DNA from: Argopecten irradians
Lineage: Eukaryota > Mollusca > Bivalvia > Pectinida > Pectinidae
DNA length: 64,000 bases
Direction of reading: 5' to 3'
Assembly (NCBI RefSeq): GCF_041381155.1
Contig: NC_091135.1
Location: 2,610,490-2,674,489, forward strand
Shown: piece by piece, positions 7,857-60,480 of the stretch
Numbering within the stretch: position 1 is the first letter of the stretch
Layout of the letters: each line of letters opens with the position of its first letter
Notes under the pieces: generated by a model
Told to the model about the DNA's origin: nothing
What the model saw: only the letters and a program-made list of their open reading frames with translations
Databases searched by the model: none
Program-made: the position numbers and the translations under genes

Positions 7857-7865
7857 TCAGAATAT
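7857..7865 (+). repeat. Left 9-bp target-site duplication (TCAGAATAT)
   Basis: Identical to 17866-17874 and immediately outside the inverted terminus of the 10-kb element. Confidence 0.88.
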
Positions 7866-9890
7866 GGAGGGCTGAAGTTGGTTGCGAGTTCCTAGTTCCT
7901 AGTTCCGTTTAATAAACGGAACTAGGAACCAGACCCGAGTTCCGTTTAACTTAAACGGAACTAGGAACCAGACCCGAGTTCCGTTTAACTTAAACGGAAC
8001 TAGGAACCAGACCCGAGTTCCGTTTAAGCTTATACGGAACTAGGAACCAGACCCGAGTTCCGTTTAACAAACATACTGGCCAACGAGCGGAGTTCCGTTT
8101 ATTAGGATTCCTATCTCTAACTGCATGTTCAATTACCTATTATATACAGGAATCGAACTTAGAGCTTCCATGAATAATATAGAACAGAATTAATATCTAT
8201 AACACAGATTTCCTTAAACGGATCTGATACCTAGACCTCAGTTCCGTTTAACTTAAACGGAACTAGGAACCAGACCCGAGTTCCGTTTAAGCTTATACGG
8301 AACTAGGAACCAGACCCGAGTTCCGTTTAACAAACATACTGGCCAACGAGCGGAGTTCCGTTTATTAGGATTCCTATCTCTAACTGCATGTTCAATTACC
8401 TATTATATACAGGAATCGAACTTAGAGCTTCCATGAATAATATAGAACAGAATTAATATCTATAACACAGATTTCCTTAAACGGATCTGATACCTAGACC
8501 TCAGTTCCGTTTAACTTAAACGGAACTAGGAACCAGACCCGAGTTCCGTTTAAGCTTATACGGAACTAGGAACCAGACCCGAGTTCCGTTTAACAAACAT
8601 ACTGGCCAACGAGCGGAGTTCCGTTTATTAGGATTCCTATCTCTAACTGCATGTTCAATTACCTATTATATACAGGAATCGAACTTAGAGCTTCCATGAA
8701 TAATATAGAACAGAATTAATATCTATAACACAGATTTCCTTAAACGGATCTGATACCTAGACCTCAGTTCCGTTTAACTTAAACGGAACTAGGAACCAGA
8801 CCCGAGTTCCGTTTAAGCTTATACGGAACTAGGAACCAGACCCGAGTTCCGTTTAACAAACATACTGGCCAACGAGCCGAGTTCCGTTTATTAGGATTCC
8901 TATCTCTAACTGCATGTTCAATTACCTATTATATACAGGAATCGAACTTAGAGCTTCCATGAATAATATAGAACAGAATTAATATCTATAACACAGATTT
9001 CCTTAAACGGATCTGATACCTAGACCTCAGTTCCGTTTAACTTAAACGGAACTAGGAACCAGACCCGAGTTCCGTTTAAGCTTATACGGAACTAGGAACC
9101 AGACCCGAGTTCCGTTTAACAAACATACTGGCCAACGAGCGGAGTTCCGTTTATTAGGATTCCTATCTCTAACTGCATGTTCAATTACATATTATATACA
9201 GGAATCGAACTTAGAGCTTCCATGAATAATACAGCACAGAATTAATTTCATTAACACAAATTCCCTTAAACGGATCTGACACCTAGACTCCAGAACTAGG
9301 AACCAGACCCGAGTTCCGTTTAAGCTTATACGGAACTAGGAACCAGACCCGAGTTCCGTTTAACAAACATACTGGCCAACGAGCCGAGTTCCGTTTATTA
9401 GGATTTCTACCTCTAATTGCATGTTCAATTACATATCATATACGGGAATCGCACTTAAAGCTTACATTCATAATACAGAACAGAATTAATATCTATAACA
9501 CAGATTTCCTTAAACGGATCTGACACCTAGACTCCAGTTCCGTTTAACTTAAACGGAACTAGGAACCAGACCCGAGTTCCGTTTAAGCTTATACGGAACT
9601 AGGAACCAGACCCGAGTTCCGTTTAACAAAAATACTGGTCAACGAGCCGAGTTCCGTTTATTAGGATTTCTACCTCTTATAAGATAATAAATTACATATG
9701 TTATAAAGGAATCTAGCTCTGAGCTTCAGGAACGATACAACTTATATAATTTATCTCTATAACACAGATTTTCTTAAACGGATCTGATACCTAGACCTCA
9801 GTTCCGTTTAATTTAAACGGAACTAGGAACCAGACCCGAGTTCCATTTAAGCTTTTACGGAACTAGGAACCAGACCCGAGTTCCGTATAA
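7866..9890 (+). repeat. Left arm of the 10-kb element: outer domain plus seven 263-bp units
   Basis: The marker caaacatactgg occurs at 8068, 8331, 8594, 8857, 9120, 9364 and 9627 (the last copy reads caaaaatactgg). Spacing is 263 bp except for one 244-bp unit. Within each unit a shorter block of about 40 bp repeats; it contains near-perfect palindromes such as gttccgtttaa-c-ttaaacggaac. Outer units are almost identical; the last two drift, and the innermost (9650-9790) carries a distinct filler that also occurs in the innermost right-arm unit. Confidence 0.95.
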
Positions 9891-10559
9891 CCCATCGCTT
9901 GCATAGACATTTGTAAAGCTCACCTGACCCGAAGGGCCCGATATCGAATATAATAATATGAGATATCTTATATAATGCGATTAAATTCTGGATGGACCTT
10001 GCTCCTTCAATAAATTTTAAATTGGCTTGCCATAGCATTTACTCATTTTAGCTCAACTGGTCCAAAGGACCGAGTTAAGTTATGCAATAGCGCGACGTGC
10101 GGCGTTGATGAATGAGACCGGAATTCCGTTGAAATTAAATGGAAATTCTAGGCAACAGACCGTTTAAGCCCAGTACATACGATTTTTACAGATATCTTTA
10201 TCTAATCCCCATGGTAAAAGGATTTTATTTTAAAATTTAAATCTAACAATGTTTTCTCGAAATATTCAGATTTCCAGATTATGTTTCTCCATTTATTTTT
10301 ATTTTTATGTGAAAGAGTATTTCAAATTTATATTTTTCTGATATTTTAATATTCTGTTAAATTGATGTGCATTTTATCGAACTTCAAGCATAAACCAAAA
10401 CTGCCTTTGAAATATACATGTATATTGTACCTATTGATCTTGGTTAAGAATATCCTTCCAGGAGTCAACAAAATAGATCACAAGGAAGCACCTGTTTTAT
10501 GAAGTAATTGTCACAAAAACAATTGGAAATAGTAAAACAGGCTCCACGATTTGCAATAG
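9891..10559. repeat. Degenerate arm remnants and a dispersed hairpin-bearing repeat
   Basis: The stretch agctcacctgacccgaaggg (about 9916) and agctcaactggtccaaagga (about 10049) resemble the ends of a widespread bivalve repeat that I recall as carrying 'agctcacctggcccgaaggg'. Around 10110-10170 weak copies of the arm motif (gaattccgtt...cagaccgtttaa) return. No gene is visible; the rest is AT-rich. Confidence 0.45.
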
Positions 10560-10602
10560 CGGTAGTACGGCGGCGTATTAGGGCCACTATATAATTTAAT
10601 TT

Positions 10603-10748
10603 ATCTTGTACGTACAAGTTATTTTCTTGTACGTACAACTTAGTATCTTGTACGTACAACTTAGTATCTTGTACTTACAAGTTAGTATCTTGTACGTACA
10701 AGATAGTATCTTGTACGTATAACTTAGTACTTGTACATACAAGTTGAG
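10603..10748 (-). repeat. Left CTTGTACGTACAAG palindrome array
   Basis: About seven units of 20-21 bp built on the perfect 14-base palindrome CTTGTACGTACAAG with variants. It is the mirror of the longer array at 12599-12953. Open reading frames here on either strand are a by-product of the 21-bp period. Confidence 0.93.
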
Positions 10749-10858
10749 TTGAACTGCTGTTCATCACCGCAGAATTGAGTCCTCTGCCTGATATTTTTCG
10801 TAATTAAAGATAGTCTGTCTACTTTTCATTGCTTCAAGCACGATCACAGGTTTATTAA

Positions 10859-11214
10859 AGATGCTCCACCGCCGACAGAGCATAAATGATATTCATCATT
10901 AGAACAATAATTGGTGTTTAATCGTGTATATATATGTCTAATTAACACAAAAACTAACATAAAATAATTAGTTTTGCCTTTGGTGCATGCGCAATCATTA
11001 CTCCATTCTATATAAGATATAGTGCCACGGAATTTTTTCGGGATGCAATTAATTATTTTTCATATTTTTAACTTGAATTAAAATTAGAAGCTCAAACTTT
11101 TCAATGGTGGTAATGGTGTAAAGTCAGTAACTTTTTTAACTGAAGAAAAATACAAAATCGTCTGCTCCTGTTTTTGATGGTGTAAAAATACCATTTGTCA
11201 GCGGTGGAGCATCT
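10859..11214 (+). mobile_element. TTAA-flanked MITE, family A copy 1 (356 bp)
   Basis: Termini AGATGCTCCACCGCCGAC and its inverse GTCAGCGGTGGAGCATCT are flanked on both sides by TTAA (10855-10858 and 11215-11218). Copies 2 (47864-48217) and 3 (59832-60189, inverted) share sequence end to end. TTAA targets are typical of piggyBac-type transposition, but these termini do not start with the usual CCC of that family, so the superfamily is open. Confidence 0.9.
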
Positions 11215-11519
11215 TTAACTTATTTGACAATATTCAAAATATAAATATATATTAATGAGGACAATATCTTTTTCACAATCATAATTTGAAATTGCCGGAT
11301 TATGAGTTGAAACTGTATAGTCACTTGCATTATTTTGAAACTGACACTGTATAGTTCCTTTCGAGGAAACTGTATAGTCGCTTGTTTTATAGATAAGATA
11401 TTTTAGTGATGAAATGTATATGATACATCTCCGATAAATGATAAGTTTTATCTATTAAAAAGAGGAGAAAACAAATTCGTAATTTTCTTCAGTAATTAAA
11501 GTTAAATACTTCATACTGG

Positions 11520-11765
11520 TGCCATTATTGGAAATGTTGGAGCATTTATTTTACATCAGAATATTAGTATTGAAAATAATTAACTGCCTCCGAAAAAAAT
11601 CCTAAGCATTATGCCCTAATTCGAACGAGTTACTGATTGCACTGATTGCAAAGACAACAAAGGCAAAACAAATTATTTCATATGTTTTTTTTTGTGTTTA
11701 TTAGACATATATACACACATCAATTATTGTCCAAATGATGATCATATTTATTACTCCGTTATAAA
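11520..11765 (-). mobile_element. Degenerate relic of MITE family A, inverted relative to copy 1
   Basis: Segments such as gaaaataattaactgc-(c)tccgaaaaaaatcc, tactgattgca and caattattgtccaa line up with copy 3 in the same order. Both terminal inverted repeats are lost. It lies about 300 bp from copy 1 in the opposite orientation. Confidence 0.65.
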
Positions 11766-11777
11766 CATTTACATGTA

Positions 11778-12427
11778 CAGGGTGTCCCAAAAACATATCC
11801 CGAGTTTGACGCTTTATAAAAATGGTTTTGGTAGACAGAGGAATTTGATCTATTTACCATTAGAAAGGTAGTAATCTGCTCTGTACAACGATATATAACA
11901 ATCCGGACGAATATCTTCTTGTGAAGACTTATATTGAAAATCGAGAGAAAGTCATATTTCGCTAATTTTGCGTTTTGTTCAGAAAATCAATAACTTTCAG
12001 TTAAAGAATGGGCACGAGGTGTCCGCCCTTCTTTTCGATGACAAGATGACTTCTGACCAAGAAATTCCTCACCACCTCACAATTCTGTAAATCTGCTTCC
12101 TGCAGATGGACAGCATACCTGGGTGACATTTTCATAAAATTTCATTAATGTAAGTATGGGATTTTCCGATCGCATTGTAGATTTTAATAACTTCAGCATG
12201 AATCTTCATGGTGCTAGAAAGTCATCAAAATATGACATAATCGATGATATCATCATTTCTATTATGACGTCATCACACATAATGGCGATGTAATCTGTAA
12301 ATTTGTACCCAATTAAGTTAAATTTGGATACTCCTGCTTTCCAAATCATTTTGAATTTTCAAAAAAAGTTTAGTATTGCAAAATTTATTATCCGTCAAAG
12401 TCGGGACATGTTTTTTGGGACACCCTG
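11778..12427 (+). mobile_element. Mariner-type MITE (650 bp)
   Basis: Ends CAGGGTGTCCCAAAAA (from 11778) and TTTTTTGGGACACCCTG (to 12427) are inverted repeats flanked by TA on both sides (11776-11777, 12428-12429). CAGGGTGTCCC termini with TA duplication are typical of Tc1/mariner elements. No transposase frame is present, so it is non-autonomous. Confidence 0.88.
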
Positions 12428-12598
12428 TATATGTTCGGAAACTTATCAAAGCATCACAACTCCACAAAATGTCGCAAGGTATTCTTTTTTTCCATTTGGC
12501 TTAAACAAAGGGTACGTAATATACGTATAGCTTCATGCGATGCGATTGTGACAGTAAACATGTCACATTCTTTAATACCGAGAGTTTCAACATTGTAC

Positions 12599-12953
12599 TA
12601 TCTTGTACGTACAAGATACTAAGTTGTACGTACAAGATACTAACGTGAACGTACAAGATATTAACTTGTACGTACAAGATACTAACTTGCAGTATCTTGT
12701 ACGTACAAGATACTAAGTTGTACGTACAAGATACTATCTTGCAGTATCTTGTACGTACAAGATACTAACTTGTACGTACAAGATACTAAGTTGTACGTTC
12801 AAGATACTAGGTTGTACGTACAAGATAGTAACTTGTACGTACAAGATACTAAGTTGTACGTACAAGATAGTAACTTGTACGTACACGATACTAAGTTGCA
12901 CGTACAAGATATTAACTTGTACGTACAAGATTATAACTTGTACGTACAAGATA
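12599..12953 (+). repeat. Right CTTGTACGTACAAG palindrome array
   Basis: About 17 units of the palindrome with spacers such as atacta, mostly 21 bp apart. As the period is a multiple of three and the unit is palindromic, long open frames appear on both strands with a heptapeptide YVQDTKL-like pattern; these are not evidence for a protein. The array is joined to the right terminus of the nested element. Confidence 0.95.
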
Positions 12954-12995
12954 AATCAAATTTTGCAGTGGCCCTAATACGCCGCCGTACGGTAG

Positions 12996-13949
12996 AGAGT
13001 CAGTCCCAGTATTTTTACAATTTTGAATTCCCACTAAGGATGCTACCATCGCAATATGAGCACTATCCCATACTTAATTTCAGAGAAAAGTCGTTTATAT
13101 GGAAATAAACACATTGCCCCTGGCCCCGCCCCTCAGGCCCAAGGGGATAAGCCACACCCTTTGTATAATTTTGTATCCTCATCCCATACAGATACTACCT
13201 TTGCAATATTTTTTGTTATATATCGTGCTAAGTTTTAGAGAAGAAGTCTTTTATACGGAAATTAGAGTTTTTCAATGTTAAGCCACTTTTCATGATATAA
13301 TATTTACCGTAACTTTAGAATTCAAATACACTACATACACCAATTTTTATAGCCCTGAAAACATTATATTTGAGAATCCCGTCTCCCTACCGTACTTTAT
13401 TTCGTACTCGACGAGAGTATATAGAATGGTGTCCCTTTCTAAAAACCTCTATGTAGCCACGAGGACAAATGACTGAGGAGGAAAGGGAATGAGGACAGAA
13501 GGGTGGAACCCCATAAAGTTATTGTTAGTTTTACATCATGTAAATTGGTTTTACATTGAAAAACCTCAATTTCTTTTCAGTAATACGCTACCATAACTTT
13601 AGTACGCAAATTTGTCTTACCGTAATGGAGAGTCCGAAGCCAGGCAGCCCAGTCAAATGGCAAATGTAGGGGACAGGCCCCAGGCAGAGAATATAAAACA
13701 GGGTTGAATGAACAAAGGAAAAAACGAAAATACCTCCCCGTGGAAAGAGGTGCACCATTGTGAAACCTGCTTGCATAATGTTAAAAGACCATATATGTAT
13801 ATAATGTCTACTGAGGAAGAACAGTCACAGACTGAATCATCACAACTGGGCCCAAGGAAAACAGTCCATCAGAGTGGAAGGACAGAGACCGGAGGTGAAA
13901 GTAGACTGACCACGCCAAACGGCAGAAGACATCATGTCCTGGTACAAGG
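12996..13949. other. Interior of the 10-kb element, no gene recognised
   Basis: Contains a GC-rich fragment (about 13118-13150, cctggccccgcccctcaggc) that looks like a dispersed repeat. The 13600-13940 part may be the eroded end of the DIRS-type relic next to it, but I found no recombinase box II there. Confidence 0.4.
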
Positions 13950-13951
13950 AC

Positions 13952-14478
13952 CTATTGCGGAGAGCCAAAGAAGTCGCTAGAAATACGCGAAGAGCGAAAA
14001 GACAATGCATGAATATCACTTCTCCTGTGGCCTGAGGCAACAGCAAGCAGGAAGACAGTCTTTAAAGTTAAAAACTTTATGGAGACCGATCCTAAAGGCA
14101 CATTAGAAGCCGAAGCCCCCATTTGTGACTTTAACACGAGTTCTAGGTTCCACTGTGGAGCTGACGTTAGGCCTGTCCAGATTGAACCCCCGAATCAAGA
14201 CAGACAAAGAAATGAAGATCATACCCACTGGCAATAGCTGTGCGATAGCCTGCAATAGTACATTATTGCGCTCCCTAAACAACAAGGAGAATGAAACTCG
14301 CAATCAGCTGGGCAGAGGCCATGACCGGATCAATCCTCCTGACGATACACCAATCAAAGAAGATCTTCCAGCGTGACTGGTAGACGGCAGAGGAGAAAGA
14401 CCTAATTGATCGGGCGATGAGAGCTGACATATCCGAAGAAAAGCCTGTTTGAGCTAGGACTCCTGAAATCATGTCCAT
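13952..14478 (-). pseudogene. Tyrosine recombinase fragment of the DIRS-type relic
   Basis: The core-binding part reads AVYQSRWKIFFDWC (about 14385-14344), typical for the Y-x-S-R-W-x-x-F-x-x-W-C signature. A later frame gives TLKTVFLLAVASGHRRSDIHALS, containing box I with the first catalytic Arg (G-x-R-R-S-x-I). Box II (H-x-x-R) and the nucleophilic Tyr are not found, so the catalytic domain is cut short or eroded. Confidence 0.78.
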
Positions 14479-14769
14479 GCGTGAAGGTAACGTCTGGGGC
14501 CGATTCTAACGAAAGACATTTGCTTTTGGTGGGAGAACCAGAGGACGAGCCACCAGAAACGTCAAGAGCTCCGAAAACCAGGGTTGTCGCGGCAACAGTG
14601 GCGCTATCGGAAAGAGGGAGCAAAAATACCCCGGAAACTTCTGTAGAACCCTGCGTCCACGGCCCAAGCCATTTGGTTTGGCACGGAGACACAAAGGTTG
14701 ACAACTGACTATTGAGAAAAGAGGCAAAAAGGTCGAGGGATAAAGATGCCGTTCTGTCATAACCAGCTG

Positions 14770-14953
14770 GCGCTGCCTGGAGATTATCCGCCCTTCCTGG
14801 AAAATGCTTGACTAAAATTGTTAACTGCATTTCCTCATAGATAGGAATAATACGGAAATACGGACAGCGAGGGCACAAAGGAGGTAAGCTGATGTCCCTG
14901 TCTCTCCAGATAAGCGACCACTGTAGAGTTGTCCGTAGCCATTCAAACCGCAT
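14770..14953 (-). pseudogene. RNase H fragment of the DIRS-type relic
   Basis: In one frame the start reads ATDNSTVVAYLERQG, the conserved D-N-S/T-x-V-A-Y-x-x-R-Q-G block of DIRS-type RNase H. In a second frame further on is ILVKHFPGRAD, matching the H-I/F-P-G-R-x-N/D motif, and then DLFASFLNSQLSTFVSP (about 14700), the block following RNase H. Stops separate the frames. Confidence 0.78.
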
Positions 14954-15093
14954 TGGAATGCAGAATCCTCTAAAAAGTCTGCAGAGACCCTGTGGATCGG
15001 GTGTTCCGATCCGCAGATTCCCGAACTAGATGTATCGTTAGCAATTCTTCGACATAGTTGTGAACATATCTTCCCTAGAGTGCAGAAATCACA

Positions 15094-15458
15094 CTACAAC
15101 CAACAGCAGTTGATGGGACACCAAGCTCCCAACCTCTTGCGGATCAGAAATATTCTGGAATAGAAGCCGAGTGTGTAGTCCATAATAGGCACCCCTCGAC
15201 CACGCCCTTTAAAAGCATGGTCCTTACTTCCTCCCGGATGGAAACTGCCTTCTCCGGATCCCCCGAAGGTGGGAAAAATACATCCTTTACACAAAGTGTG
15301 GATGCCGCAAGTATGGAATGCCAAACCGCTCCTTCACTACAGAAAAGGCTCAAGAGTCCTGTGTGATATTCTTCCATTGACTCTAATTTACGAGAGGAGG
15401 ACTTGAATCTCAGACTGGCTGAATTCTCAAGAACAGACCTTTCGTATGGAACGATCAA
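15094..15458 (-). pseudogene. DIRS-type reverse transcriptase fragment (frameshifted)
   Basis: One frame carries IREEVRTMLLKGVVEG, the helix ahead of the RT fingers. A shift then moves to a second frame with GFYSRIFLIRKRLGAWCPI, matching the PGFYSRLFLVPKK-G-WRP consensus of this RT class. The catalytic YxDD region that should follow is absent; the sequence resumes at about 15000 in the connection to RNase H (LCRLFRGFC, RTTLQWSLIWRD). The gene is inactive. Confidence 0.72.
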
Positions 15459-15930
15459 GGACGGAGAAACGAATCAGGAACTTTTCGTCTTGTCCCAATG
15501 AGGGTTTGTACTCTTCCTACCCTTCCCAATGTTACTCTTGAAATAAGGCTTTGACTTCGGTCGCATATAACAGTGGGAGCAGAATTTCTAGCCTTCTTCT
15601 TTGGTGGTGCTGACCTCTGTGAGGTAATGGCCTCCAATCTCTGAATTTTTTCTATGTTTTCAAAACAGAGAAAAAAACTCCTAGCCAACAAGACATTGAC
15701 GAGCAATGGCACCTTCAAAGAAGCCAATGATCTCAATGTCCTGTTCAGGGCAGAAGTATTCAAGTTTATATATGACATTCTGGATGGAGAGACGCAACAG
15801 CCTCTCCATCTTGTGGTGCTCCTTGGAGCCGAACACTACCTGGTTCCCTGACCAAGTTTCCCGAGTTCAACACTCAAGCTTAGCTGGCAAAGAGGACGGC
15901 AGTCTATCATGTATTGCATAACCAGGGGCT

Positions 15931-16489
15931 TGAACCTTTGACCAAAACTGAGGTGCAACAGGGCTAACCTAAGCGTGCGAGATGAGGAAAAATTCTTCTT
16001 CATAACTCAAGTTAAGATATGAATGCCATTGACCACTTTTCCTTGTTAGATAAACACCCGTCAAATTGTCCAATGAAAATATCTAGTAAACATCTTATTA
16101 CACGTGGGAATCATAATAAACAAACTCAACGCATTGGTCAGTAAAAGCACGTGAACTGAATATGGAATTTGAATGCGTTGGGCTAAAAGGAACTCGGGTC
16201 TAATCCCTAGATTCGTATGATCTTAAACGGGACTCTGACATGGTTTGTCGACTCCGTTTCTACGCTATAATGAGTTTTACTGTGATTATATGTTCCTAAA
16301 GGTTCCGAAGACGATTACTGTAAAATGCTAGAACACTGACACGTCAAAAAAGGAACCGCTCAAGGTGCTTTGCGATTAGGAAAAGTAATATCTTGACAAT
16401 GAAATGTACAATTGAAGCTCTGATTTCGAAATGTTTGATGACAGTATAGTACAAGAGATCTTAGAGGATCCTTGGCGCCTACGAAAGAA
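15931..16489. other. Interior of the 10-kb element with degenerate arm motifs
   Basis: Around 16190-16260 aactcgggtctaatccctag and related pieces resemble the arm unit (aactcgggtctggttcctag) in right-arm orientation, far inside the recognisable arm. No gene. Confidence 0.5.
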
Positions 16490-16975
16490 TGATGTATGTC
16501 TGACGAAAGAGGAATATTTTTCTCTGCTTTTTAAACTATAAATATTAAAATCCAAGATGGCTGCCTCTTGGCCATCTTGTTGATTTTGTTTCATTGAGTT
16601 GTATGGCCCATTTGGGGCTATCTTGTTGATAGATCGGTTCAAAAATGCATTATACGCAACTAGGAACCTAGGGGAAACCAACCTCTGAAATTTCAGACAG
16701 ATCCCTTTGGTGCTTTCTGAGAAATAGAGATAAACATCTTCAACTTCCAAAATCAAAGTTGTTTCTCTATCAGCCATCATGTCGATTGGCCCTAAAATGT
16801 AATATGCAGAACAGGGGCACTAAGGTAACCTACATCTGCAATTTAAGACTTCTTGGTAACAAAAAAAAAAAAAAACTAAAAAAGGACAGGCGGACGGACG
16901 GACGGACGGACAGATAGATCGACAACCTGATTACTATAAGGCACCCGTATTGCGATACGGGGCCCTATTAAGCAT
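16490..16975 (+). repeat. Dispersed repeat with poly-A and (GGAC)n microsatellite
   Basis: Contains paired 'ccaagatggctgcctcttgg' motifs, a run of 15 A (16861-16875) and a ggac/cgga microsatellite (16883-16911), ending near 'gatacggggccc'. The layout resembles an abundant bivalve interspersed repeat. A 134-codon minus-strand frame across it is considered fortuitous. Confidence 0.5.
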
Positions 16976-17138
16976 CAAGATATTCATTAAAGTCTTTAAA
17001 GGCAATGTATAGGCCAACATCGGCTTAAACAGAACTAGGATCTTGTTCCTAGATCCGTATACTATTAAACAGAACAGAACAGGTTTCGAGCGTCAGCTCT
17101 AAACTGACCTCGGGTCTGGTTCCTAGATTCGATCAAAT

Positions 17139-17865
17139 AAACGGAAGTCGAATATGGTTCCTAGTTCTGTTTGAGCTTAAAAAGAACCAACGTCTGGTTC
17201 CTAGTTCCGTTTAAGTTAAACGGAACTGAGGTCTAGGTATCAGATCCGTTTAAGAAAATCTGTGTTATAGAGATAAATTATATAAGTTGTATCGTTCCTG
17301 AAGCTCAGAGCTAGATTCCTTTATAACATATGTAATTTATTATCTTATAAGAGGTAGAAATCCTAATAAACGGAACTCCGCTCGTTGGCCAGTATGTTTG
17401 TTAAACGGAACTCGGGTCTGGTTCCTAGTTCCGTATAAGCTTAAACGGAACTCGGGTCTGGTTCCTAGTTCCGTTTAAGTTAAACGGAACTGAGGTCTAG
17501 GTATCAGATCCGTTTAAGGAAATCTGTGTTATAGATATTAATTCTGTTCTATATTATTCATGGAAGCTCTAAGTTCGATTCCTGTATATAATAGGTAATT
17601 GAACATGCAGTTAGAGATAGGAATCCTAATAAACGGAACTCCGCTCGTTGGCCAGTATGTTTGTTAAACGGAACTCGGGTCTGGTTCCTAGTTCCGTATA
17701 AGCTTAAACGGAACTCGGGTCTGGTTCCTAGTTCCGTTTAAGTTAAACGGAACTCGGGTCTGGTTCCTAGTTCCGTTTAAGTTAAACGGAACTCGGGTCT
17801 GGTTCCTAGTTCCGTTTATTAAACGGAACTAGGAACTAGGAACTCGCAACCAACTTCAGCCCTCC
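17139..17865 (-). repeat. Right arm of the 10-kb element: outer domain plus two 263-bp units
   Basis: In inverted orientation, the markers end at 17663 and 17400, again 263 bp apart. The outer marker lies 202 bp from the end (17865), exactly as on the left. The inner unit (about 17240-17360) has the same variant filler as the innermost left unit (ataacatatgtaatttatt and neighbours). Weaker repeats continue inward to about 17000. Confidence 0.95.
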
Positions 17866-17874
17866 TCAGAATAT
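17866..17874 (+). repeat. Right 9-bp target-site duplication (TCAGAATAT)
   Basis: Identical to 7857-7865. Confidence 0.88.
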
Positions 17875-25747: not shown

Positions 25748-25969
25748 ACTTTAAGTGCCCAGGACCCAGTTTCATAAACAACCCTTAAATTAAAGTAATT
25801 CCTTAACTTAAAATTCTTCATAGGAAAACATGACAGATTTAAAAGAAGGCTCCTTACCTTATGATTTTTTCATTAACTTTTGTAATGCTTTTCTATGGGA
25901 AAATTTAAGTTAAGAAATACCTTAAAGTTAAGGAATGTTCATGAAACTGGGTCCTGGGCACTTAAAGTA
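25748..25969. mobile_element. Palindromic MITE, 222 bp
   Basis: Outer 28 bases actttaagtgcccaggac... (25748) and their inverse ...gtcctgggcacttaaagt (to 25969) match almost perfectly, and pairing continues imperfectly inward (ccttaacttaaaattcttca / tgggaaaatttaagttaag). Nearly the whole element can fold on itself. No clear target duplication. Confidence 0.8.
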
Positions 25970-28400: not shown

Positions 28401-29880
28401 CCAACAGTTGTAAGTGTCACGACAGAACAGGCACACGTCTCCTACAGTTGTAAGTGTCACGACAGAACAGGCACACGTCTCCTACAGTTGTAAGTGTCAC
28501 GACAGAACAGGCACACGTCTCCAACAGTTGTAAGTGTCACGACAGAACAGGCACACGTCTCCAACAGTTGTAAGTGTCACGACAGAACAGGCACACGTCT
28601 CCAACAGTTGTAAGTGTCACGACAGAACAGGCACACGTCTCCAACAGTTGTAAGTGTCATGACAGAACAGGCACACGTCTCCAACAGTTGTAAGTGTCAT
28701 GACAGAACAGGCACACGTCTCCAACAGTTGTAAGTGTCACGACAGAACAGGCACACGTCTCCAACAGTTGTAAGTGTCACGACAGAACAGGCACACGTCT
28801 CCAACAGTTGTAAGTGTCACGACAGAACAGGCACACGTCTCCAACAGTTGTAAGTGTCATGACAGAACAGGCACAGGTCTCCAACAGTTGTAAGTGTCAT
28901 GACAGAACAGGCACAGGTCTCCAACAGTTGTAAGTGTCATGACAGAACAGGCACAGGTCTCCAACAGTTGTAAGTGTCATGACAGAACAGGCACAGGTCT
29001 CCAACAGTTGTAAGTGTCATGACAGAACAGGCACACGTCTCCTACAGTTGTAAGTGTCACGACAGAACAGACACACGTCTCCAACAGTTGTAAGTGTCAC
29101 GACAGAACAGGCACACGTCTCCAACAGTTGTAAGTGTCATGACAGAACAGGCACACGTCTCCAACAGTTGTAAGTGTCATGACAGAACAGGCACAGGTCT
29201 CCAACAGTTGTAAGTGTCATGACAGAACAGCCACACGTCTCCAACAGTTGTAAGTGTCATGACAGAACAGGCACACGTCTCCAACAGTTGTAAGTGTCAT
29301 GACAGAACAGGCACACGTCTCCAACAGTTGTAAGTGTCATGACAGAACAGGCACAGGTCTCCAACAGTTGTAAGTGTCATGACAGAACAGGCACACGTCT
29401 CCTACAGTTGTAAGTGTCACGACAGAACAGACACACGTCTTCAACAGTTGTAAGTGTCACGACAGAACAGACACACGTCTCCAACAGTTGTAAGTGTCAT
29501 GACAGAACAGACACACGTCTCCAACAGTTGTAAGTGTCACGACAGAACAGGCACAGGTCTCCAACAGTTGTAAGTGTCATGACAGAACAGACACACGTCT
29601 CCAACAGTTGTAAGTGTCACGACAGAACAGGCACAGGTCTCCAACAGTTGTAAGTGTCATGACAGAACAGGCACACGTCTCCAACAGTTGTAAGTGTCAC
29701 GACAGAACAGGCACACGTCTCCAACAGTTGTAAGTGTCATGACAGAACAGGCACACGTCTCCAACAGTTGTAAGTGTCACGACAGAACAGGCACACGTCT
29801 CCAACAGTTGTAAGTGTCACGACAGAACAGGCACACGTCTCCAACAGTTGTAAGTGTCATGACAGAACAGGCACACGTCT
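28401..29880 (+). repeat. 40-bp satellite, exactly 37 copies
   Basis: Unit: ccaacagttgtaagtgtcac + gacagaacaggcacacgtct. The array spans 1,480 bp, that is 37 x 40 without a single insertion or deletion. Variation is limited mainly to a C/T at gtcacg/gtcatg, C/G at cacacg/cacagg, G/A at ggcac/gacac and A/T at ccaac/cctac; these come in blocks (for example four catg-cagg units in a row at 28841-29000). Confidence 0.98.
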
Positions 29881-30778
29881 CCTGAAGCAGGAGATTCAAT
29901 GAAGGCAGCCACAATCATTCCAACAATGGCATAACTTCGTCTAAATCATTATTATCCTTGCCCTTTGAATTAATTGAAATGGGTATCTCTCAACCAACTA
30001 TCTGAACGAAATAAAGTATTTCAAATAAGTATTTTTACTGACGAGGTTGCCTCTCTCAGTCTTGTTTCTCATTCAACGTTTACATGGATTGTACATTAAT
30101 GTAAATTACTTCACAAAAATGTCGTTGCCAATATCTTATTTACCTTCCCGATCAACAAGCACATACTCTTTTTTTGTCTGCAAACTTCTTTGGACAGAAA
30201 TAGCAGGATGTTTGAGGTTTATGTGTTTCTAACTGTATTTTACTATGTTCATTACTTGTGAAATCTACACCTGATCAAATACTTAATTTCACAAAAGACT
30301 TCTGTAGCTACCTCAAACTTCAAATCGTCAAATCGCCATCTTGTTATTATTCCGTGTATTGGTCATGAAATGTTGAGAACGAGTAAACAACATTGAACAT
30401 ATGACGTAGAAACTCGAAGTAATATTTGATGCAATTTAGTCTCATTATAGATGGTACACATACCTAATCGTTCATCATTAAATTGAGATATTGAGTTGGA
30501 TATTATCTGTGTACATATATCATCAACATGGTAAAGTAATATTTACGTGGATAGGTTGGTGTAATCAACAATGTAGCTGTAACATGTTTAATTAACACAC
30601 AATTCATCAGAACGTAAGATTTAGTTTTGTAAATTCTGCCTTACATCTCATCGACAACTATTGTTGTCTTAAAAAGATTTCTCCATTGACGTGACGTGTT
30701 TCTATGTAGTAAGTGTTATAGGGAAACTCTGGTATACCATGGTGTGTCTTCTTGTTATAATAGGAACAGTTAGACTAA
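29881..30778. other. Non-coding stretch
   Basis: No gene, RNA or repeat recognised apart from AT-rich sequence. Confidence 0.6.
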
Positions 30779-36489: not shown

Positions 36490-36705
36490 ATACTAAGTAT
36501 GTATGAAGACATGAGATATAGAGGTTCCCCACCAAGTGACTGTTGTTTATCATGTTTATCAAACTCGAGTTAGTTAAATTTCCTTTTTAACAGACACGAG
36601 CTTTAGCGAGTGTCTTTTGAAAATTTGAAAATTAACTTACGAGAGTTTAGATAAACATGATAAACACCAGTCACGCGTTGGGGAACTTATTTATCCCATA
36701 CCTTG
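36490..36705. mobile_element. Palindromic repeat (MITE-like)
   Basis: Outer arms gaggttccccaccaagtgac / gtcacgcgttggggaactta pair imperfectly. Next, tgtttatcatgtttatc / gataaacatgataaaca pair perfectly (36544-36560 / 36650-36667), and the centre is a hairpin, gacacgagctttagcgagtgtc. Almost the entire segment can fold. Confidence 0.7.
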
Positions 36706-38560: not shown

Positions 38561-38576
38561 AGAAATTGAATACATT

Positions 38577-39955
38577 AAAGGTGATAAAAACAGAAGGGAC
38601 ATGGAAAATGAGATAATACGCTAGAAACATTTGTATGTCCTATTTAGAGGTGATAAAAACAGAAGAGACATGGAAAATGAGATAATACGCTAGAAACATT
38701 TGTATGTCCTATTTAAAGGTGATAAAAACAGAAGAGACATGGAAAATGAGATAATACGCTAGAAACATTTGTATGTCCTATTTAAAGGTGATGAAAACAG
38801 AAGAGACATGGAAAATGAGATAATACGCTAGAAACATTTGTATGTCCTATTTAGAGGTGATAAAAACAGAAGAGACATGGAAAATGAGATAATACGCTAG
38901 AAACATTTGTATGTCCTATTTAGAGGTGATAAAAACAGAAGAGACATGGAAAATGAGATAATATGCTAGAAACATTTGTATGTCCTATTTAGAGGTGATA
39001 AAAACAGAAGAGACATGGAAAATGAGATAATACGCTGGAAACATTTGTATGTCCTATTTAAAGGTGATGAAAACAGAAGAGACATGGAAAATGAGACAAT
39101 ACGCTGGAAACATTTGTATGTCCTATTTAAAGGTGATGAAAACAGAAGAGACATGGAAAATGAGATAATACGCTAGAAACATTTGTATGTCCTATTTAAA
39201 GGTGATAAAACAGAAGAGACATGGAAAATGAGATAATACGCTAGAAACATTTGTATGTCCTATTTAAAGGTGATAAAACAGAAGAGGACATGGAAAATGA
39301 GATAATACGCTAGAAACATTTGTATGTCCTATTTAAAGGTGATAAAAACAGAAGAGACATGGAAAATGAGATAATACGCTAGAAACATTTGTATGTCCTA
39401 TTTAAAGGTGATGAAAACAGAAGAGACATGGAAAATGAGATAATACGCTAGAAACATTTGTATGTCCTATTTAAAGGTGATAAAAACAGAAGAGACATGG
39501 AAAATGAGATAATACGCTAGAAACATTTGTATGACCTATTTAAAGGTGATGAAAACAGAAGAGACATGGAAAATGAGATAATACGCTAGAAACATTTGTA
39601 TGTCCTATTTAAAGGTGATGAAAACAGAAGAGACACGGAAAATGAGATAATACGCTAGAAACATTTGTATGTCCTATTTAGAGGTGATAAAAACAGAAGA
39701 GACATGGAAAATGAGATAATACGCTAGAAACATTTGTATGACCTATTTAGAGGTGATAAAAACAGAAGAGACATGGAAAATGAGATAATACGCTAGAAAC
39801 ATTTGTATGTCCTATTTTAAGGTGATAAAAACAGAAGAGACATGGAAAATGAGATAATACGCTAGAAACATTTGTATGTCCTATTTTAAGGTGATAAAAA
39901 CAGAAGGGATATGGAAAATGAGATAATACGCTAGAAACATTTGTATGTCCTATTT
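38577..39955 (-). repeat. 69-bp minisatellite, about 20 copies, inside the LINE B endonuclease
   Basis: Unit ggtgataaaaacagaagaga + catggaaaatgagataatac + gctagaaacatttgtatgtc + ctatttaaa. Copies differ by a few substitutions (ataaaa/atgaaa, attta-a/g-a) and rare one-base changes. 69 bp equals 23 codons, and on the minus strand several units in a row are open. The array sits exactly between the Y-R-P-P and G-D-x-N parts of the endonuclease, so the unit probably began as LINE coding sequence. Confidence 0.95.
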
Positions 39956-39959
39956 AATT

Positions 39960-46990: not shown

Positions 46991-47863
46991 TTGACAGTAA
47001 GACAATACCAAATACCCGATATAGTCCACCGAATAGCAAATTGCCCGCGGCCAGGTAAAGGTGATGGTATCGTTATTTTCTATCAATCTGAATTACGTAA
47101 CAAAATAAGCATAATTGAAAATATCCATGACAGTATTGTTTGGGTTGAAGTTGAATTATTACATAGTTCTGCTAAGCCTATACTTTTTGCATTTTGCTAC
47201 ATCCCCCCTGAAAATAGTGTTTACTATGACCATTATGATACTGACCTTTTCCAGTGTTTAGAGGAATCAATCTCTAAATATAAGAATATGGGAGATATAT
47301 ATGTTGTTGGTGATTTAAACGCAAGAACGGGAAATAGACAGGATTATATAGAAAATGATCGATTACATGATAGTGTACACAATATGAATAGTATGTCTAG
47401 TTATAATGATGAAACAGAAAAAAACAAGCGTAAAAGTAGGGATAATGAGGTTAATACATTCGGTAGAAGGTTGTTAGAAATATGCAAATCATCAGGCTTA
47501 CGTATAGTTAACGGTAGACACCAAGATGACGATCACGGCTCTTATACGTTTTACAACACAAATGGGAAAAGCTTGATAGATTATTTGCTAACTGAAGGTT
47601 CACATATTGAGAAGATTTGATTCTGGTAATTTTAATACATACTCGGATCATAGTCCCGTCTCATTTACCATTTCTTGTAGTAAGCTCATTTCCTCAAATG
47701 AAGAGGATATAGTTACAGAGAGTGATTTTTCAAGCAGAGGAAAAAGTACATCAGTAAAGTGGAATGATGAAAATATACCTTTAATCCTGAATAAATTGCA
47801 TGAGTCTATAGGGAGAATAAATGAAGAAATGGATGTTGATTTTGATAGTCAAGAAGTAGTTAA
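46991..47863 (+). pseudogene. LINE A AP-endonuclease
   Basis: The frame carries GKGDGIVIFYQ (G-G-I-V-I-F-Y strand), FAFCYIPPENS (Y-x-P-P), VVGDLNARTGNRQDYI (catalytic G-D-x-N), LRIVNGRHQDDDHGSYTF and SLIDYLL (conserved D-Y). A one-base shift at about 47610 moves to a second frame with YSDHSPVSF (catalytic S-D-H). The conserved N-terminal L-N-x-R-S and E-T motifs are missing. The second frame ends where the MITE was inserted. Confidence 0.87.
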
Positions 47864-48217
47864 AGATGCTCCACCGCCGATAGAGCATAAATGATATTCC
47901 TCACTTGAACAATAATTGGTGTTTAATCGTGTATATATATGCCTAATTAACACAAAAATGATATAAAATAATTTATTTCCCCTTTGGTGCATGCACAATC
48001 AATACTTCATTCTATATAGGATATAGTGCCACGGAATTTTTTCGGGATGCAATTAATTAGTCTTCATATTTTTAACTTGAAGTAAAATTAAAAGCTTAAA
48101 CTTCTCAATGGTGGTAATGATGTAAAGTAAATAACTTTTGTAAGTGAAGAAAATACTAAATCGTCTGCACCTGTTTTTGATGGTGAAAAAATATCATTTG
48201 TCAGCGGTGGAGCATCT
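47864..48217 (+). mobile_element. TTAA-flanked MITE, family A copy 2 (354 bp), inside LINE A
   Basis: TTAA at 47860-47863 and 48218-48221 bounds the element, with ends AGATGCTCCACCGCCGA and TCAGCGGTGGAGCATCT. The LINE reading frame before and after is continuous if the element and one TTAA are ignored: codons run on without a stop for about 90 residues to the TAA at 48502. This shows that a single TTAA was the target and that LINE A was already in place. Confidence 0.92.
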
Positions 48218-48221
48218 TTAA

Positions 48222-49857
48222 TAGATGTGTTAATAACATAAGTCAAATACTCAATGCTGAGTGTACTCTGCCATATTGTGTATGTAGAGATAACTCTGTT
48301 CGGAACCATGTCAATGATAGACGTCAGGTTAAAACTACAAAGGACAAACCATGGATAACCCAACAATGCAAAAACCTATTTAGAGAATATAAAAAATCAT
48401 TAAAACAGTTTAATAGGGACAAGTCTGAACAAAATCATCGGATATTAGTTACTGCCAAACGTGATTATAAAAAATTAGAGTATAAATTGAAAAGGCAGTA
48501 TTAACGACGTGAAGGGAATACGTTGTATTTCTTGAAAAGATCAAACCCTCGGCAATTCTATAAGTTAATAAAAAAGAAGACACAGAACAGAATTACATCT
48601 ACTCTATGTATTGATGAGTTTTATTCTCACTTTAAAGAGTTAATGAATGACAATCACGAAGGAGACACAAATATGTCAGATGTTAATTTAAATCCAGTTT
48701 ACGAGGAGCTTGATAATTATATTACTACATATGAGATAGAAAGAGCTATTAGAAATTTGAAATGTAATAAAAGTTGTAGTGAAGATTTGATTATTAATGA
48801 AATTTTTATACGTGGAAAAGGAATTCTGCTGCCATATTTAGAAAAACTGTTTAATGCTATTTTTAGATCTGGGTTTTTCCCAGAAATCTGGTCTCAATCT
48901 TGTATAGTGCCTATTTTTAAAAAAGGTTGTGTGAATGATACAAATAATTATCGAGGGATATCGCTAGTCAGTTGTTTTGGTAAACTGTTCACTAGTGTGT
49001 TGAACAACAGAGTTATGGAATGGGAAAAGGAAAACTCTATTTTGACCGATGCTCAATTCGGCTTTAGAAGGGGAAGGTCAACGACCGACGCCATATTTGT
49101 CTTACAGACCCTTATTAACAGAAAATTAAAAAATAGAGGTAGACTTTATTGTTGTTTCGTAGATTTCAGGAAAGCTTTTGATTATATTGATAGAAGCAAA
49201 TTGTGGACTAAATTGATAAATTGTGGAATTAATGGAATTTTTTTAAGAATTATATTCTCTTTGTATAAAAACGTAAAATCATGTGTAAAATACAACGGTC
49301 ATTTGAGTAATCATTTCCCAAATAAATCCGGACTCTTTCAAGGCGAAATATTGTCACCTGTTCTCTTTTCCCTATATGTAAATGATTTTGAAACCAATTT
49401 CATTAATGATAATTGTCCTAGTATAGAGTTACAAATGTTGAATCTTTTCTTATTGATGTACGCTGATGACATGGTTTTGTTTACAAACACCCCAGAAGGA
49501 TTACAAAATATACTTGACTCTTTACAGGAATACAGTAGAACGTGGAATCTAGAGGTTAATGTTGATAAAACTAAAATTGTGTTTTTTAGAAACGGGGGCA
49601 TTTTACGTAATAACGAGTCATGGACTTATAATGACCACGTGGTAGAAATTGTTGATAGTTTTAAATACTTGGGCATGTTGTTTAATTATAATGGAAAATT
49701 CTATAAAACGCAGAAACATATAGCAGAACAGGGAAGAAAAGCTTTATTTTCATTATTTTCATCTTTAAGAAATCATTGTCTGAATACAGAAACTTTTTGC
49801 TCTGTATTTGATTCGCATGTTAACAGTATACTAATTATATATAAGTTATGCGTCTGA
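48222..49857 (+). pseudogene. LINE A reverse transcriptase
   Basis: After the MITE, the linker (KPWITQQCKNLFREYK) leads to an in-frame stop at 48502-48504, beyond which 450 codons are open. Motifs in order: YRGISLVSCFGKLF, DAQFGFRRGRSTTDAI, CCFVDFRKAFDYID (motif A, catalytic Asp), KSGLFQGEILSPVLFSLYVN (motif B), LLMYADDMVLF (motif C, both Asp intact) and LEVNVDKTKIVFF (motif D). There is no real ATG at the start, because the frame is the interior of a longer ORF2. The catalytic core is intact despite the flanking damage. Confidence 0.9.
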
Positions 49858-56306: not shown

Positions 56307-57340
56307 TATTAAATTGCATGATAAGAAATACTTGCTTTTCTTAATCGGGCATTTGATATTATCTCAATCTAAATATCACACGTCCTATCACCTCCAGCAA
56401 TTCACATCGTTGCATGTCATGGGACTTAGCGTGATTATCATTCATGTACAGTAATGGAGAAAACTGCTCTGTTTACCAGAATTTGTCTAATGTATTTTAC
56501 AAAATGAATCTTCTTGCGTAATATAAGTCTTATAATGCATATAGGTTTTAATTTTACAAAGTCAATTACATGCGTTTGCTATTCGGTAAAGTAACTAAGA
56601 AATAACACAAACTTGTCAAACCAAGAAACTTTTAAAAGTAAGGATCTGCAATTTTATTTCAGTTGTAGTTTTTACATGTAAAGTGACTTTTAATGTTTCA
56701 ATCTCTGAATTTCAACAAACATAAAACTTCAAAAACTAAATTTGTGTTACATGTATATTACTATTGAATTGATTGTCTGATAAGTATCAAACCTCATCTG
56801 GTCAAGTTCTGAAAGGCCTAGAAACGATCTGATATTGAACTCGTATTTCCAAAATAATATTATCAATATCAAGATATCAAATTGTTGAAAATGAAGGTAT
56901 TTCAGTATTTGAAGGAATTTAGATCAAGATCCTAAATTTAGTCTGCACTTACGATCATGAAGAGGAGCATTATTCACAATTCTAATATCCTACCGTTTGA
57001 CTATGTGTTGTTTGGAATTATAAAGTAACCTTTAATAACATAAACACTTGCTTTAAAGATGAAAATGAAAAAAAATGCTTAAAAGACAGAAATGCATTTA
57101 ATATTAGTATATTACCTACATGTAGTTACCTACATATGTATATGACACAGTGTATGTAGCCCTAGGGTGTATTCATCTTAAACAGGTCATGCCCCGATCC
57201 ACATACAATACTGCATGTAAACGTCAATGTCAAGCTATCAAATCGTTATATGAATTTTCAGCAAAATTAGTTTTAATGCTAAAATAGATTAAATGCCTAA
57301 CTAGGTCACTGTGATCTACTTATCCGTTTTCTAAAACAGA
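56307..57340. other. Non-coding stretch
   Basis: AT-rich, no gene, RNA or repeat recognised before the satellite starts. Confidence 0.6.
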
Positions 57341-59623
57341 TCATTTCTATTTTAAGAATAAATCTAATGACCCCCTATTATCATTTCTATTTTAAGAATT
57401 AACCTAATGACCCCCTATTTTAAGAATTAATCTAATGACCCCCTATTATCATTTCTATTTTAAGAATTAATCTAATGACCCCCTATTTTAAGAATTAATC
57501 TAATGACCCCTATTTTAAGAATTAATCTAATGACCCCCTATTTTAAGAATTAATCAAATGACCTCCTATTTTAAGAATTAATCTAATGACCCCCTATTTT
57601 AAGAATTAATCTAATGACTCCCTATTTTAAGAATTAATCTAATGACCCCCTATTTTAAGAATTAATCAAATGACCTCCTATTTTAAGAATTAATCTAATG
57701 ACCCCCTGTTTTAAGAATTAATCTAATGACCCCTATTTTAAGAATTAATCTAATAACCCATATTTTAAGAATTAATCTAATGAGCCCTGTTTTAAGAACT
57801 AATCTAATGACCCCCTATTTTAAGAATAAATCTAATGACCCCCTATTATCATTTCTATTTAAAGAATTAACCTAATGACCCCCTATTTTAAGAATTAATA
57901 TAATGACCCCTATTTTAAGAATTAATCTAATGACCCCTATTTTAAGAATTAATCTAATGACCCCCTATTTTAAGAATAAATCTAATGACCCCCTATTATC
58001 ATTTCTATTTTAAGAATTAATCTAATGACCCCCTATTTTAAGAATTAATCTAATAACCCCTATTTTAAGAATTAATCTAATGACCCCCTATTTTAAGAAT
58101 TAATCAAATGACCTCCTATTTTAAGAATTAATCTAATGACCCCCTGTTTTAAGAATTAATCTAATGACCCCTATTTTAAGAATTAATCTAATAACCCATA
58201 TTTTAAGAATTAATCTAATGAGCCCTATTTTAAGAATTAATCTAATGACCCCCTATTTTAAGAATAAATCTAATGACCCCCTATTATCATTTCTATTTAA
58301 AGAATTAACCTAATGACCCCCTATTTTAAGAATTAATATAATGACCCCTATTTTAAGAATTAATCTAATGACCCCTATTTTAAGAATTAATCTAATGACC
58401 CCCTATTTTAAGAATAAATCTAATGACCCCCTATTATCATTTCTATTTTAAGAATTAATCTAATGACCCCCTATTTTAAGAATTAATCTAATAACCCCTA
58501 TTTTAAGAATAAATCTAATGACCCCATATTTTAAGAATTAATCTAATGACTCCCTATTTTAAGAATTAATCTAATGACCCCCTATTTTAAGAATTAATCT
58601 AATGACCCCCTATTATCATTTCTATTTTAAGAATTAATCTAATGACTCCCTATTTTAAGAATTAATCTAATGACCCCCTATTTTAAGAATAAATCTAATG
58701 ACCCCCTATTTTAAGAATAAATCTAATGACCCCCTATTATCATTTCTATTTTAAGAATTAATCTAATGACCCCCTATTTTAAGAATTAATCTAATGACTC
58801 CCTATTTTAAGAATTAATCTAATGACCCCCTATTTTAAGAATTAATCTAATGACCCCCTATTTTAAGAATTAATCTAATGACCCCCTATTATCATTTCTA
58901 TTTTAAGAATTAATCTAATGACCCCCTATTATCATTTCTATTTTAAGAATTAATCTAATGACCCCCTATTATTATTTCTATTTTAAGAATTAATTTAATG
59001 ACCCCCTATTATCATTTCTATATTAAGAATTAATCCAATGACTCCCTATTATCATTTCTATTTTAAGAATTACTCTAATGACCCCCTATTTTAAGAATTA
59101 ATCTAATGACCCCTTATTATCATTTCTATTTTAAGAATTAATCTAATGACTCCCTATTTTAAGAATTAATCTAATGACCCCCTATTTTAAGAATTAATCT
59201 CATGACTCCCTATTTTAAGAATTAATCTAATGACTCCCTATTTTAAGAATTAATCAAATGACCTCCTATTTTAAGAATTAATCTAATGACTCCCTATTTT
59301 AAGAATTAATCTAATGACCCCTATTTTAAGAATTAATCTAATGACCCCCTATTTTAAGAATAAATCTAATGACCCCCTATTATCATTGCTATTTTAAGAA
59401 TAAATCTAATGACCCCCTATTATCATTTCTATTTTAAGAATTAATCTAATGACCCCCTATTATCATTTCTATTTTAAGAATTAATCTAATGACCCCCTAT
59501 TATCATTTCTATTTTAAGAATTAATCTAATGACCCCCTATTATCATTTCTATTTTAAGAATTAATCTAATGACCCCCTATTATCATTTCTATTTTAAGAA
59601 TTAATCTAATGACCCCCTATTTT
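57341..59623 (+). repeat. Satellite of 28-bp and 40-bp units, about 70 copies
   Basis: Basic unit attttaagaattaatctaat + gaccccct (28 bp). A second form adds attatcatttct (12 bp) to give 40 bp. Variants (aatcaaatgacctcct, gaccccta, aataaccca, gagcccta) recur in the same order, for example at about 57650-57990 and again about 434 bp later, so a higher-order block has been duplicated. The right end (after 59380) is a run of the 40-bp form only. Confidence 0.96.
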
Positions 59624-60480
59624 AGTTTTGGAAGCAACAACTTGTTTTCTCTTGAACTGCAAAATTTTAGAAAAAAAGCTTGTCATCAGAATTTTTTCTG
59701 TGAAGAGTTGAATCTGTCAAAAATTGTTAAAAAACGAGGTATTTTTGTCTTCAAAATATAGATGGTAGAGGTAATATATACAGCTATAGCAAAACAAATG
59801 GTTTGATTGTGTGATATTACTGTTTTCTTAAAGATGCTCCACCGCTGACAAATGGTATTTTTTCACTATCAAAAACAGGAGCAGACGATTTAGTATTTTT
59901 CTTCAGTTACAAAAGTTACTTACTTTCCACCATTACCACCATTGAAAAGTTTGAGCTTCCAATTTTACTTCAAGTTAAAAAATATGAAAAATAATTAATT
60001 GCATCCCGAAAAAAATTCCGTGTCACTATATTCTATATGGAAGGAAGTACTGATTGCGCATGCACCAAAGGCGAAATAAATTATTTTATATTATTTTTTG
60101 TGTTAATTAGACATATATATACATGATCAAACACCAATTATTGTTCAACTGATGAATATCATTTAAGCTTTGTCGGCGGTGGAGCATCTTTAAGAAAGCA
60201 CTGATTTTGTCAATTTTGCGAATATTCATAATTATCAGACTACCAATTTGCAAAATATTGCTTTTGTGTGTCTGCCCAAAACATGGAAATCTCTGTAAAA
60301 TCACTTTTTTTGTCAAACAGGTAACTATAATTCACAAAAGCCCACAAAAATCCAGCACAACGCCATATAATTTTTATTCCGTTTTCACCTTTGGTGTGAA
60401 CTCTCATTTCCAGAAATCTATATTAGAATAAAAGTTTGACATCAGAAAAAAAACGTTTTTACTAGAGCAAATCCATAGAG
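59624..60480 (+). mobile_element. Diverged family B element interrupted by a MITE
   Basis: Segments such as tgtgaactctcatttccaga-aatctata and aaagtttgacatcagaaaa (60390-60450) match the right part of the element at 31580-32729 in the same order. Termini are not recognisable. MITE copy 3 has inserted into it at 59828. Confidence 0.55.
59832..60189 (-). mobile_element. TTAA-flanked MITE, family A copy 3 (358 bp)
   Basis: TTAA at 59828-59831 and 60190-60193 flanks the ends. Sequence is the reverse complement of copies 1 and 2, end to end, with scattered differences. Confidence 0.9.

Follow-up and report, generated by a model that had tools for sequence, protein, structure and literature searches.

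Foldback transposons with tandem-unit arms

Arms made of tandem units, unequal unit numbers in the two arms, and transposase binding sites within the arms have already been described for foldback-type transposons (PMC4079207, PMC4168063, PMC3573991, PMC3169594, PMC3688188, PMC6446971, PMC10294476, PMC13359780). We compared such systems with an element located in a 64,000-bp stretch of contig NC_091135.1 of the scallop Argopecten irradians (assembly GCF_041381155.1, positions 2,610,490 to 2,674,489), here called the window. The element spans positions 7866 to 17865 of the window. It is very probably a foldback-type DNA transposon, non-autonomous and moving by cut and paste, that has arms which exchange units and that is likely mobilized in trans by a Mutator-type enzyme.

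Tetris of Drosophila virilis has tandem units of about 220 bp, the number of which differs between two alleles of one copy. It is non-autonomous, makes duplications of 8 to 10 bp, and was assigned to Mutator from the size of the duplication (PMC4079207). The likeness of the scallop element to Tetris is one of description and not of sequence comparison. The arms of Tetris include an outer flanking domain that can reach 866 bp, whereas the subunits of the scallop element start about 20 to 35 bp from its end. The central part of Tetris is variable in composition and length, whereas most long copies of the scallop family carry the same cargo. Galileo, which belongs to the P superfamily of Drosophila, shares with the scallop element long arms with internal tandem repeats, and the arms of its F group are unequal in repeat number; multiple transposase binding sites have been shown experimentally in Galileo arms. 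However, Galileo has a P-type transposase and its duplications in D. willistoni are mostly 7 bp, with three copies at 8 bp, whereas those found here are 9 bp. Tm1, a Mutator/foldback element of root-knot nematodes, resembles the scallop element in its variable number of arm repeats and in having groups without transposase, and its duplications are 8 to 10 bp, most commonly 9, in 45 of 53 complete elements. It differs in its 13- to 15-bp repeats, its asymmetric terminal motifs, and one copy with a Phantom-type Mutator-like element (MULE) transposase, whereas none was found here. Rehavkus, too, has 9-bp duplications and a minisatellite within the element, but its arms are 26 to 400 bp long, the minisatellite lies before the 3' arm, the transposase has a PHD finger, and the hosts tabulated for it are arthropods and annelids. 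A size of 9 bp is given for the duplications of several MULE groups, and foldback elements may have originated on several occasions according to the literature.

According to the original prediction, made from the letters of the window, the element did not fit a standard description. This part was not retained, as each feature is known from Tetris, Galileo F, or Tm1. The matches listed in the open-licence full-text literature included no description of an element of this kind from scallops, nor were four arm strings found in full-text papers. What is new is the family, its scallop host, and the nested insertions that order unit turnover in time. How foldback arms originate and remain paired has long been debated, mostly on the evidence of a small number of copies; the present family offers many copies, time-ordered by nested insertions, in which unit gain and loss can be compared with base substitution, and so documents arm change with unusual clarity. 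It also documents foldback elements in a scallop, and a non-autonomous unit of about 8.5 to 10 kb that was mobile while bearing dead cargo.

Boundaries and arms of the element

The element starts with GGAGGGCTGAAG at position 7866 and ends with CTTCAGCCCTCC at position 17865, and TCAGAATAT lies directly outside both ends. The boundaries and the 9-bp duplication claimed in the original prediction were thus found again, with the inverted tips inside them. At the local composition, nine adjacent flanking bases would match by chance with a probability of about 8.5e-6. A third TCAGAATAT, at position 11556, is unremarkable: 1.5 occurrences are expected on both strands and 3 were found, including the two flanks. 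The features of the ends and arms are as follows.

7866..17865: whole foldback-type element, 10,000 bp, based on the flanking repeat, the arm comparison, and the 9-bp duplications
7857..7865: left target-site duplication TCAGAATAT, based on the flank match and on other copies' own 9-bp duplications
17866..17874: right target-site duplication TCAGAATAT, based on the flank match
7866..7885, plus strand: left unique tip GGAGGGCTGAAGTTGGTTGC, the first 16 bp of which have 279 exact occurrences in the host genome
17846..17865, minus strand: right tip, the left tip inverted
7866..9891, plus strand: left arm, with the tip, four 37- to 40-bp subunits, and seven composite units (spacer types 1-1-1-1-5-6-7)
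17138..17865, minus strand: right arm, with the same tip and subunits and two composite units (1-7); corresponds to the left arm after removal of 1,296 bp
9649..9811, plus strand: 163-bp block around the left inner variant unit, identical to the block of the right arm
17216..17378, minus strand: 163-bp block around the right inner variant unit, identical to the block of the left arm
10124..10161, plus strand: decayed arm subunit in arm orientation, 14.0 bits
16195..16234, minus strand: decayed arm subunit in arm orientation, 17.5 bits
17038..17146, minus strand: two decayed arm subunits in arm orientation (17038-17075 and 17111-17146), 21.1 and 20.8 bits

The long inverted arms are built of tandem subrepeats, as expected of a foldback element. 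An array of 37- to 40-bp subunits starts just inside each tip, and the subunit core is palindromic at 24 of 25 bases. When two subunits were folded as a single DNA strand, the z-score was -8.6 relative to shuffles. The seven left and two right units of 263 bp that had been predicted were present, corrected in that the unit is composite, consisting of near-palindromic subunits (39/40 bp), a 35-bp piece, and a 149-bp spacer. The left-arm spacings are 263, 263, 263, 263, 244, and 263, so that one unit is short by 19 bp.

A profile of the subunit gave 78 matches in the window, all within the element. Eight of them lie outside the fresh arms, and six of these eight scored above 9.1 bits, the best score in a background of ten shuffles of 44 kb. 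Because decayed subunits were found further in, it is probable that the arms used to extend over a greater length and that what remains of their inner parts is old.

Copies in the host genome

The first 16 bp of the tip occur exactly 136 times in forward and 143 times in reverse orientation in the 845.8-Mb host genome (279 in total), and the reversed control gave 0. Among the first 100 of the 279 tips listed, there were 32 neighbouring pairs less than 30 kb apart and 36 singles. The pairs span 52 to 1,108 bp (10 pairs), 7.9 to 9.0 kb (10 pairs), 9.6 to 11.7 kb (8 pairs), or 12.7 to 24.6 kb (4 pairs). The flanks of copies with two tips were then compared for duplications of 6 to 12 bp. Exact duplications of their own were present in 22 of 29 copies (11/15, 1/2, and 10/12 in three batches), and every exact one was 9 bp long. 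Counted as independent events, these are 21 of 28, because L045 and L046 represent one insertion copied by inverted duplication. Both are 52-bp tip-to-tip remnants (C2:2756086 and C2:2876594, where C2 is the contig that contains the window). They are separated by 120 kb and share the same 9-bp duplication in opposite orientations, pointing to an inverted segmental duplication. With inverted arms, 279 tips, and 9-bp duplications at many places, the predicted mobile element with foldback-type arms is borne out.

The interior is common, wholly or partly, to 18 other fetched copies. Fourteen of them (C1p, C15p, C15b, C13, C12, C14b, C8, C4, C5, C14a, L014, L029, L031, and L032) also contain the nested transposon block described below, or the fetched part of it, and most of their blocks match the copy in the window (OWN) at 95 to 100%, some at 84 to 95%. 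For the remaining four (C10x, L042, L043, and, in part, L024), the matches are at about 87 to 97%. L026 has no shared interior, and for L015 the contig ends only 1.3 kb from its tip. Since 18 copies share the interior, 14 of them including the nested block, the unit moves as a whole. A miniature inverted-repeat transposable element (MITE) lies at positions 10860 to 11213. Both anchors of this site could be located in 13 copies; it is filled in 3 of them (OWN, L014, and L031, at three places) and empty in 10, with the same 15-bp empty site. Therefore, complete copies of the unit were still being transposed once the MITE had arrived.

We also considered the identical 203-bp tips of different copies as proof of homogenization. 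This argument is weakened, since those tips had been picked by identity: scores were obtained only for the top 40 among the 612 candidates of the tip search. For ten opposite tips that fall outside the listing of that search (C15b, C13, C12, C14b, C10x, C8, C14a, C16s, C15s, and C10s), nine agree with the tip of OWN over at least 84 bp and C12 over 58 bp. Exact-pattern scans of collections of viral contigs and genome contigs gave no match, and plasmids searched for distant similarity to a 735-bp part of the left arm gave none either.

Relationship between the two arms

In the copy under study, the outer 507 bp of both arms are identical. The predicted equality of the outer 203 bp on both sides holds in that the sequence is identical, although the identical stretch is in fact longer. 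Beyond 507 bp, the right arm continues as left-arm sequence located 1,296 bp deeper, and the junction falls in 20 bp of shared sequence. Identity then holds for 163 bp over the innermost variant unit, so that 507 and 163 bp, overlapping by 20, make 650 bp free of mismatches. Past the 163 bp there are one mismatch, 23 further matching bases, and then a sharp fall in similarity. Relative to the outer units, left unit 5 differs by 12 substitutions, unit 6 by 18, and unit 7 by 49. Because left units 5 and 6 have diverged (12 and 18 substitutions) yet the outer 650 bp match perfectly, we infer from these alignments that the short right arm was derived from a long arm and not the reverse.

Unit turnover was followed across copies. 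In an alignment of 5,277 interior columns, OWN and L014, both of which have the MITE, differ by 17 substitutions (0.3%) and 12 columns with gaps, yet the arm that adjoins the right interior border contains 2 spacers in the former and 9 in the latter. The left arm of L031 reads 1-1-1-1-1-7 versus 1-1-1-1-5-6-7 in OWN. In arms with a located inner border there are 1 to 20 spacers per arm, so the unit number varies both between copies and between arms, and the longer side is the left one in OWN and C1p and the right one in C15p, C12, and C10x. The number of units in the arms changes faster than the bases do.

It had been proposed that the arms grow and shrink by units while the end and the inner border are kept. 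Unit gain and loss and a conserved tip were both found, but the inner border is kept only partly. Similarly, the same variant unit closes both arms in this copy, but this is not a rule of the family, as the unit is innermost in only 9 of 27 arms, and its role as a fixed inner border was rejected on this count. Left out of the 27 arms are C16s, whose border match falls in flanking sequence, copies that lack the shared interior, and a single arm of both L014 and L024, in which no spacer was detected; in C4 and C5, the far arm is incomplete.

In 14 copies, the mean spacer edit distance between arms was 11.8 within a copy versus 15.8 between copies, and only 15 of 20,000 permutations reached the within-copy closeness observed. 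In the clearest cases, C10x and C15s, the two arms of the copy are 5.7 and 5.5 edits per spacer apart, respectively, and thus closer to each other than to any other copy's arm (12.8 and 18.6 edits). Judged from these distances, copying between arms appears to be supported in part and not to be general. A broader proposal is that the arms of the family evolve by fast inter-arm copying (foldback-templated repair), so that each copy would tend to have its own unit library in both arms and the unit number would change far more quickly than the bases. We put this forward tentatively and consider it doubtful as a general account. If it were true, identical tips would be kept by inter-arm copying as well as by selection, and the repeated arrival of unrelated transposons at the foldback form would be easier to explain.

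Mobilization of the element and alternative explanations

No transposase was found inside any fetched copy and Pfam gave no match above the cut-off, in agreement with the non-autonomous nature originally predicted. The Pfam sample consisted of ten open reading frames (ORFs) from the interior of this copy, with matches below the cut-off only, and two longer ORFs of the older copy C10x, with one match, also below the cut-off; overall, it comprised three interior ORFs of at least 200 amino acids and nine shorter ones. The ORFs of at least 200 amino acids listed in the fetched long copies belong to a retroelement fragment (see below); others listed are outside the 510-bp copy of L020. The 9-bp duplication lies within the range of about 9 bp (8 to 11) for MULEs. 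Because this size fits MULE groups and not the 7 bp of Galileo, a Mutator-type enzyme acting in trans is likely, and membership of the element itself among Mutator-like elements is plausible.

The mechanism that we propose is as follows. A transposase made elsewhere, most likely of the MULE superfamily, would recognize the 20-bp tip and probably also the many near-palindromic 39-bp subunits. Both ends would be cut, and the whole unit would be reinserted at a 9-bp staggered cut. The tandem inverted arms gain and lose whole 263-bp units, presumably through unequal exchange or slipped repair. In some copies there would also be copying between arms, probably with the mirror-image end as a template for the repair of a broken one, and one such event may have occurred here, giving a right arm that equals the left arm minus one block, joined in the 20 bp of shared sequence. 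The cargo would be passive, a dead retroelement fragment to which the nested transposon block is added in the younger form of about 10 kb.

Several observations weigh against this reading, some of them favouring another explanation. Seven of the 29 two-tipped copies lack an exact duplication. By eye, L049 and L053 match at 8 of 9 positions and L042 at 7 of 9, and C12, C14b, C6s, and C10s have none, which would follow from inter-copy exchange or deletion. An inner subunit-like match at 16650-16668 (13.0 bits) does not point in the direction of the right-arm subunits, and one at 17024-17040 (9.5 bits) is also in the opposite orientation. The arms of C5 and C14a are unlike each other (26.4 and 25.6 edits, respectively), and another copy's arm is nearer than the copy's own in 9 of 14 copies, OWN included, in a crude mean that mixes unit types. 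The last two points would be expected if the arms differed through ordinary unequal crossing-over within each arm, without copying between arms, and so would the variable unit number on both sides and the higher-order repeat of three units (7-1-1) in C5. Nevertheless, we consider this unlikely, as the diverged copies C10x and C15s hold their own unit variants in both arms, and the right arm of OWN matches its left arm perfectly over the outer 650 bp, including the inner variant unit.

The identity of the enzyme was examined through the genes of the host. There are 68 places with the MULE domain (PF10551) in its genome, and only one of them, C2:891855, is less than 30 kb from a known tip; it lies 2.6 kb away, is broken, and is outside the element, and none is inside an element with known tips. 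This comparison used 136 tip coordinates, corresponding to 129 distinct tips, with only 100 of the 279 exact tips listed. The broken MULE-type gene at that place (L044, C2:890500-896500) lies about 2 kb outside a family tip, which could be chance given 68 places and 279 tips. Thus, also on the unfavourable side, no transposase could be tied to the tips in a genome search made for the MULE domain only, and not for P-type or PHD-finger transposases. The 9-bp duplication might then come from another superfamily or an undescribed transposase, with convergence on a foldback form that, according to the literature, possibly arose more than once. This is rather improbable, because 9 bp fits several MULE groups and MULE genes are present in the host genome. 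It is highly improbable that the element belongs with Galileo among the foldback elements of the P superfamily. Galileo, too, has long arms with tandem repeats, and in one of its groups the two arms of one copy differ in repeat number, but all 22 exact duplications found here are 9 bp, versus the 7 to 8 bp of Galileo and the P superfamily. Finally, an explanation by a satellite array or by misassembly, with the flanking repeat due to chance, can practically be dismissed: tandem repeats are hard to assemble and the unit counts come from a single assembly, a further point against our interpretation, but independent 9-bp duplications, a shared interior, and clean empty sites of a nested insertion, at many places, refute it as a general account.

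Interior cargo and nested insertions

Nested insertions account for part of the 10,000 bp. The interior contains the following features.

10569..12986: nested transposon block, bounded by inverted ends of 20 bp (GGCGGCGTATTAGGGCCACT) and containing arrays of a 21-bp satellite; not present in C10x, L042, and L043
10860..11213: nested MITE with a TTAA duplication, with two further copies in the window
11778..12427: nested insertion with a TA duplication and inverted ends CAGGGTGTCCCAAAA, presumably mariner-like
13952..15835, minus strand: broken retroelement fragment, found wholly or partly in 17 of the 18 other interior-sharing copies

Because C10x, L042, and L043 are without the nested block, it looks like a later gain that was carried onward. 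The block has GTAC at both flanks, and inverted arrays of the 21-bp TTGTACGTACAAG satellite adjoin its ends. Its length differs among copies, with anchor gaps of 1.9 to 2.5 kb where it is present. The mariner-like name given to the insertion at 11778 to 12427 is our assumption from its ends, and the retroelement fragment is one that we take to be DIRS-like from its motifs. Within this fragment, at 15380-15385, each other copy aligned across the site (e.g., C1p, C15p, L014, and C10x) has about 90 bp extra, which seem to have been lost from this copy between 6-bp repeats. A protein search with a 207-amino-acid interior ORF gave one match, of 183 amino acids and 98% identical, which is probably a member of this element family itself. 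No match was obtained with a 109-amino-acid ORF, and PDB sequence searches gave matches at chance level only.

Other features of the window

Rfam and tRNA scans of the window gave no matches. The window contains an innexin gene that is 91% identical to an innexin of Pecten maximus. At 46991-49857 there are endonuclease and reverse transcriptase ORFs of the long interspersed nuclear element (LINE) type (PF14529, just below the cut-off, and PF00078). The further TTAA MITE copies are at 47860-48221, between those LINE-type ORFs, and at 59828-60205, and they are about 91% identical to the MITE at 10860-11213. Tandem arrays occupy 28401-29882 (40-bp units, 37 copies), 38575-39957 (69-bp units, 20 copies), and 57340-59624 (units of about 28 bp), and large imperfect palindromes, possibly MITEs, lie at 25748-25968 and 36511-36699.

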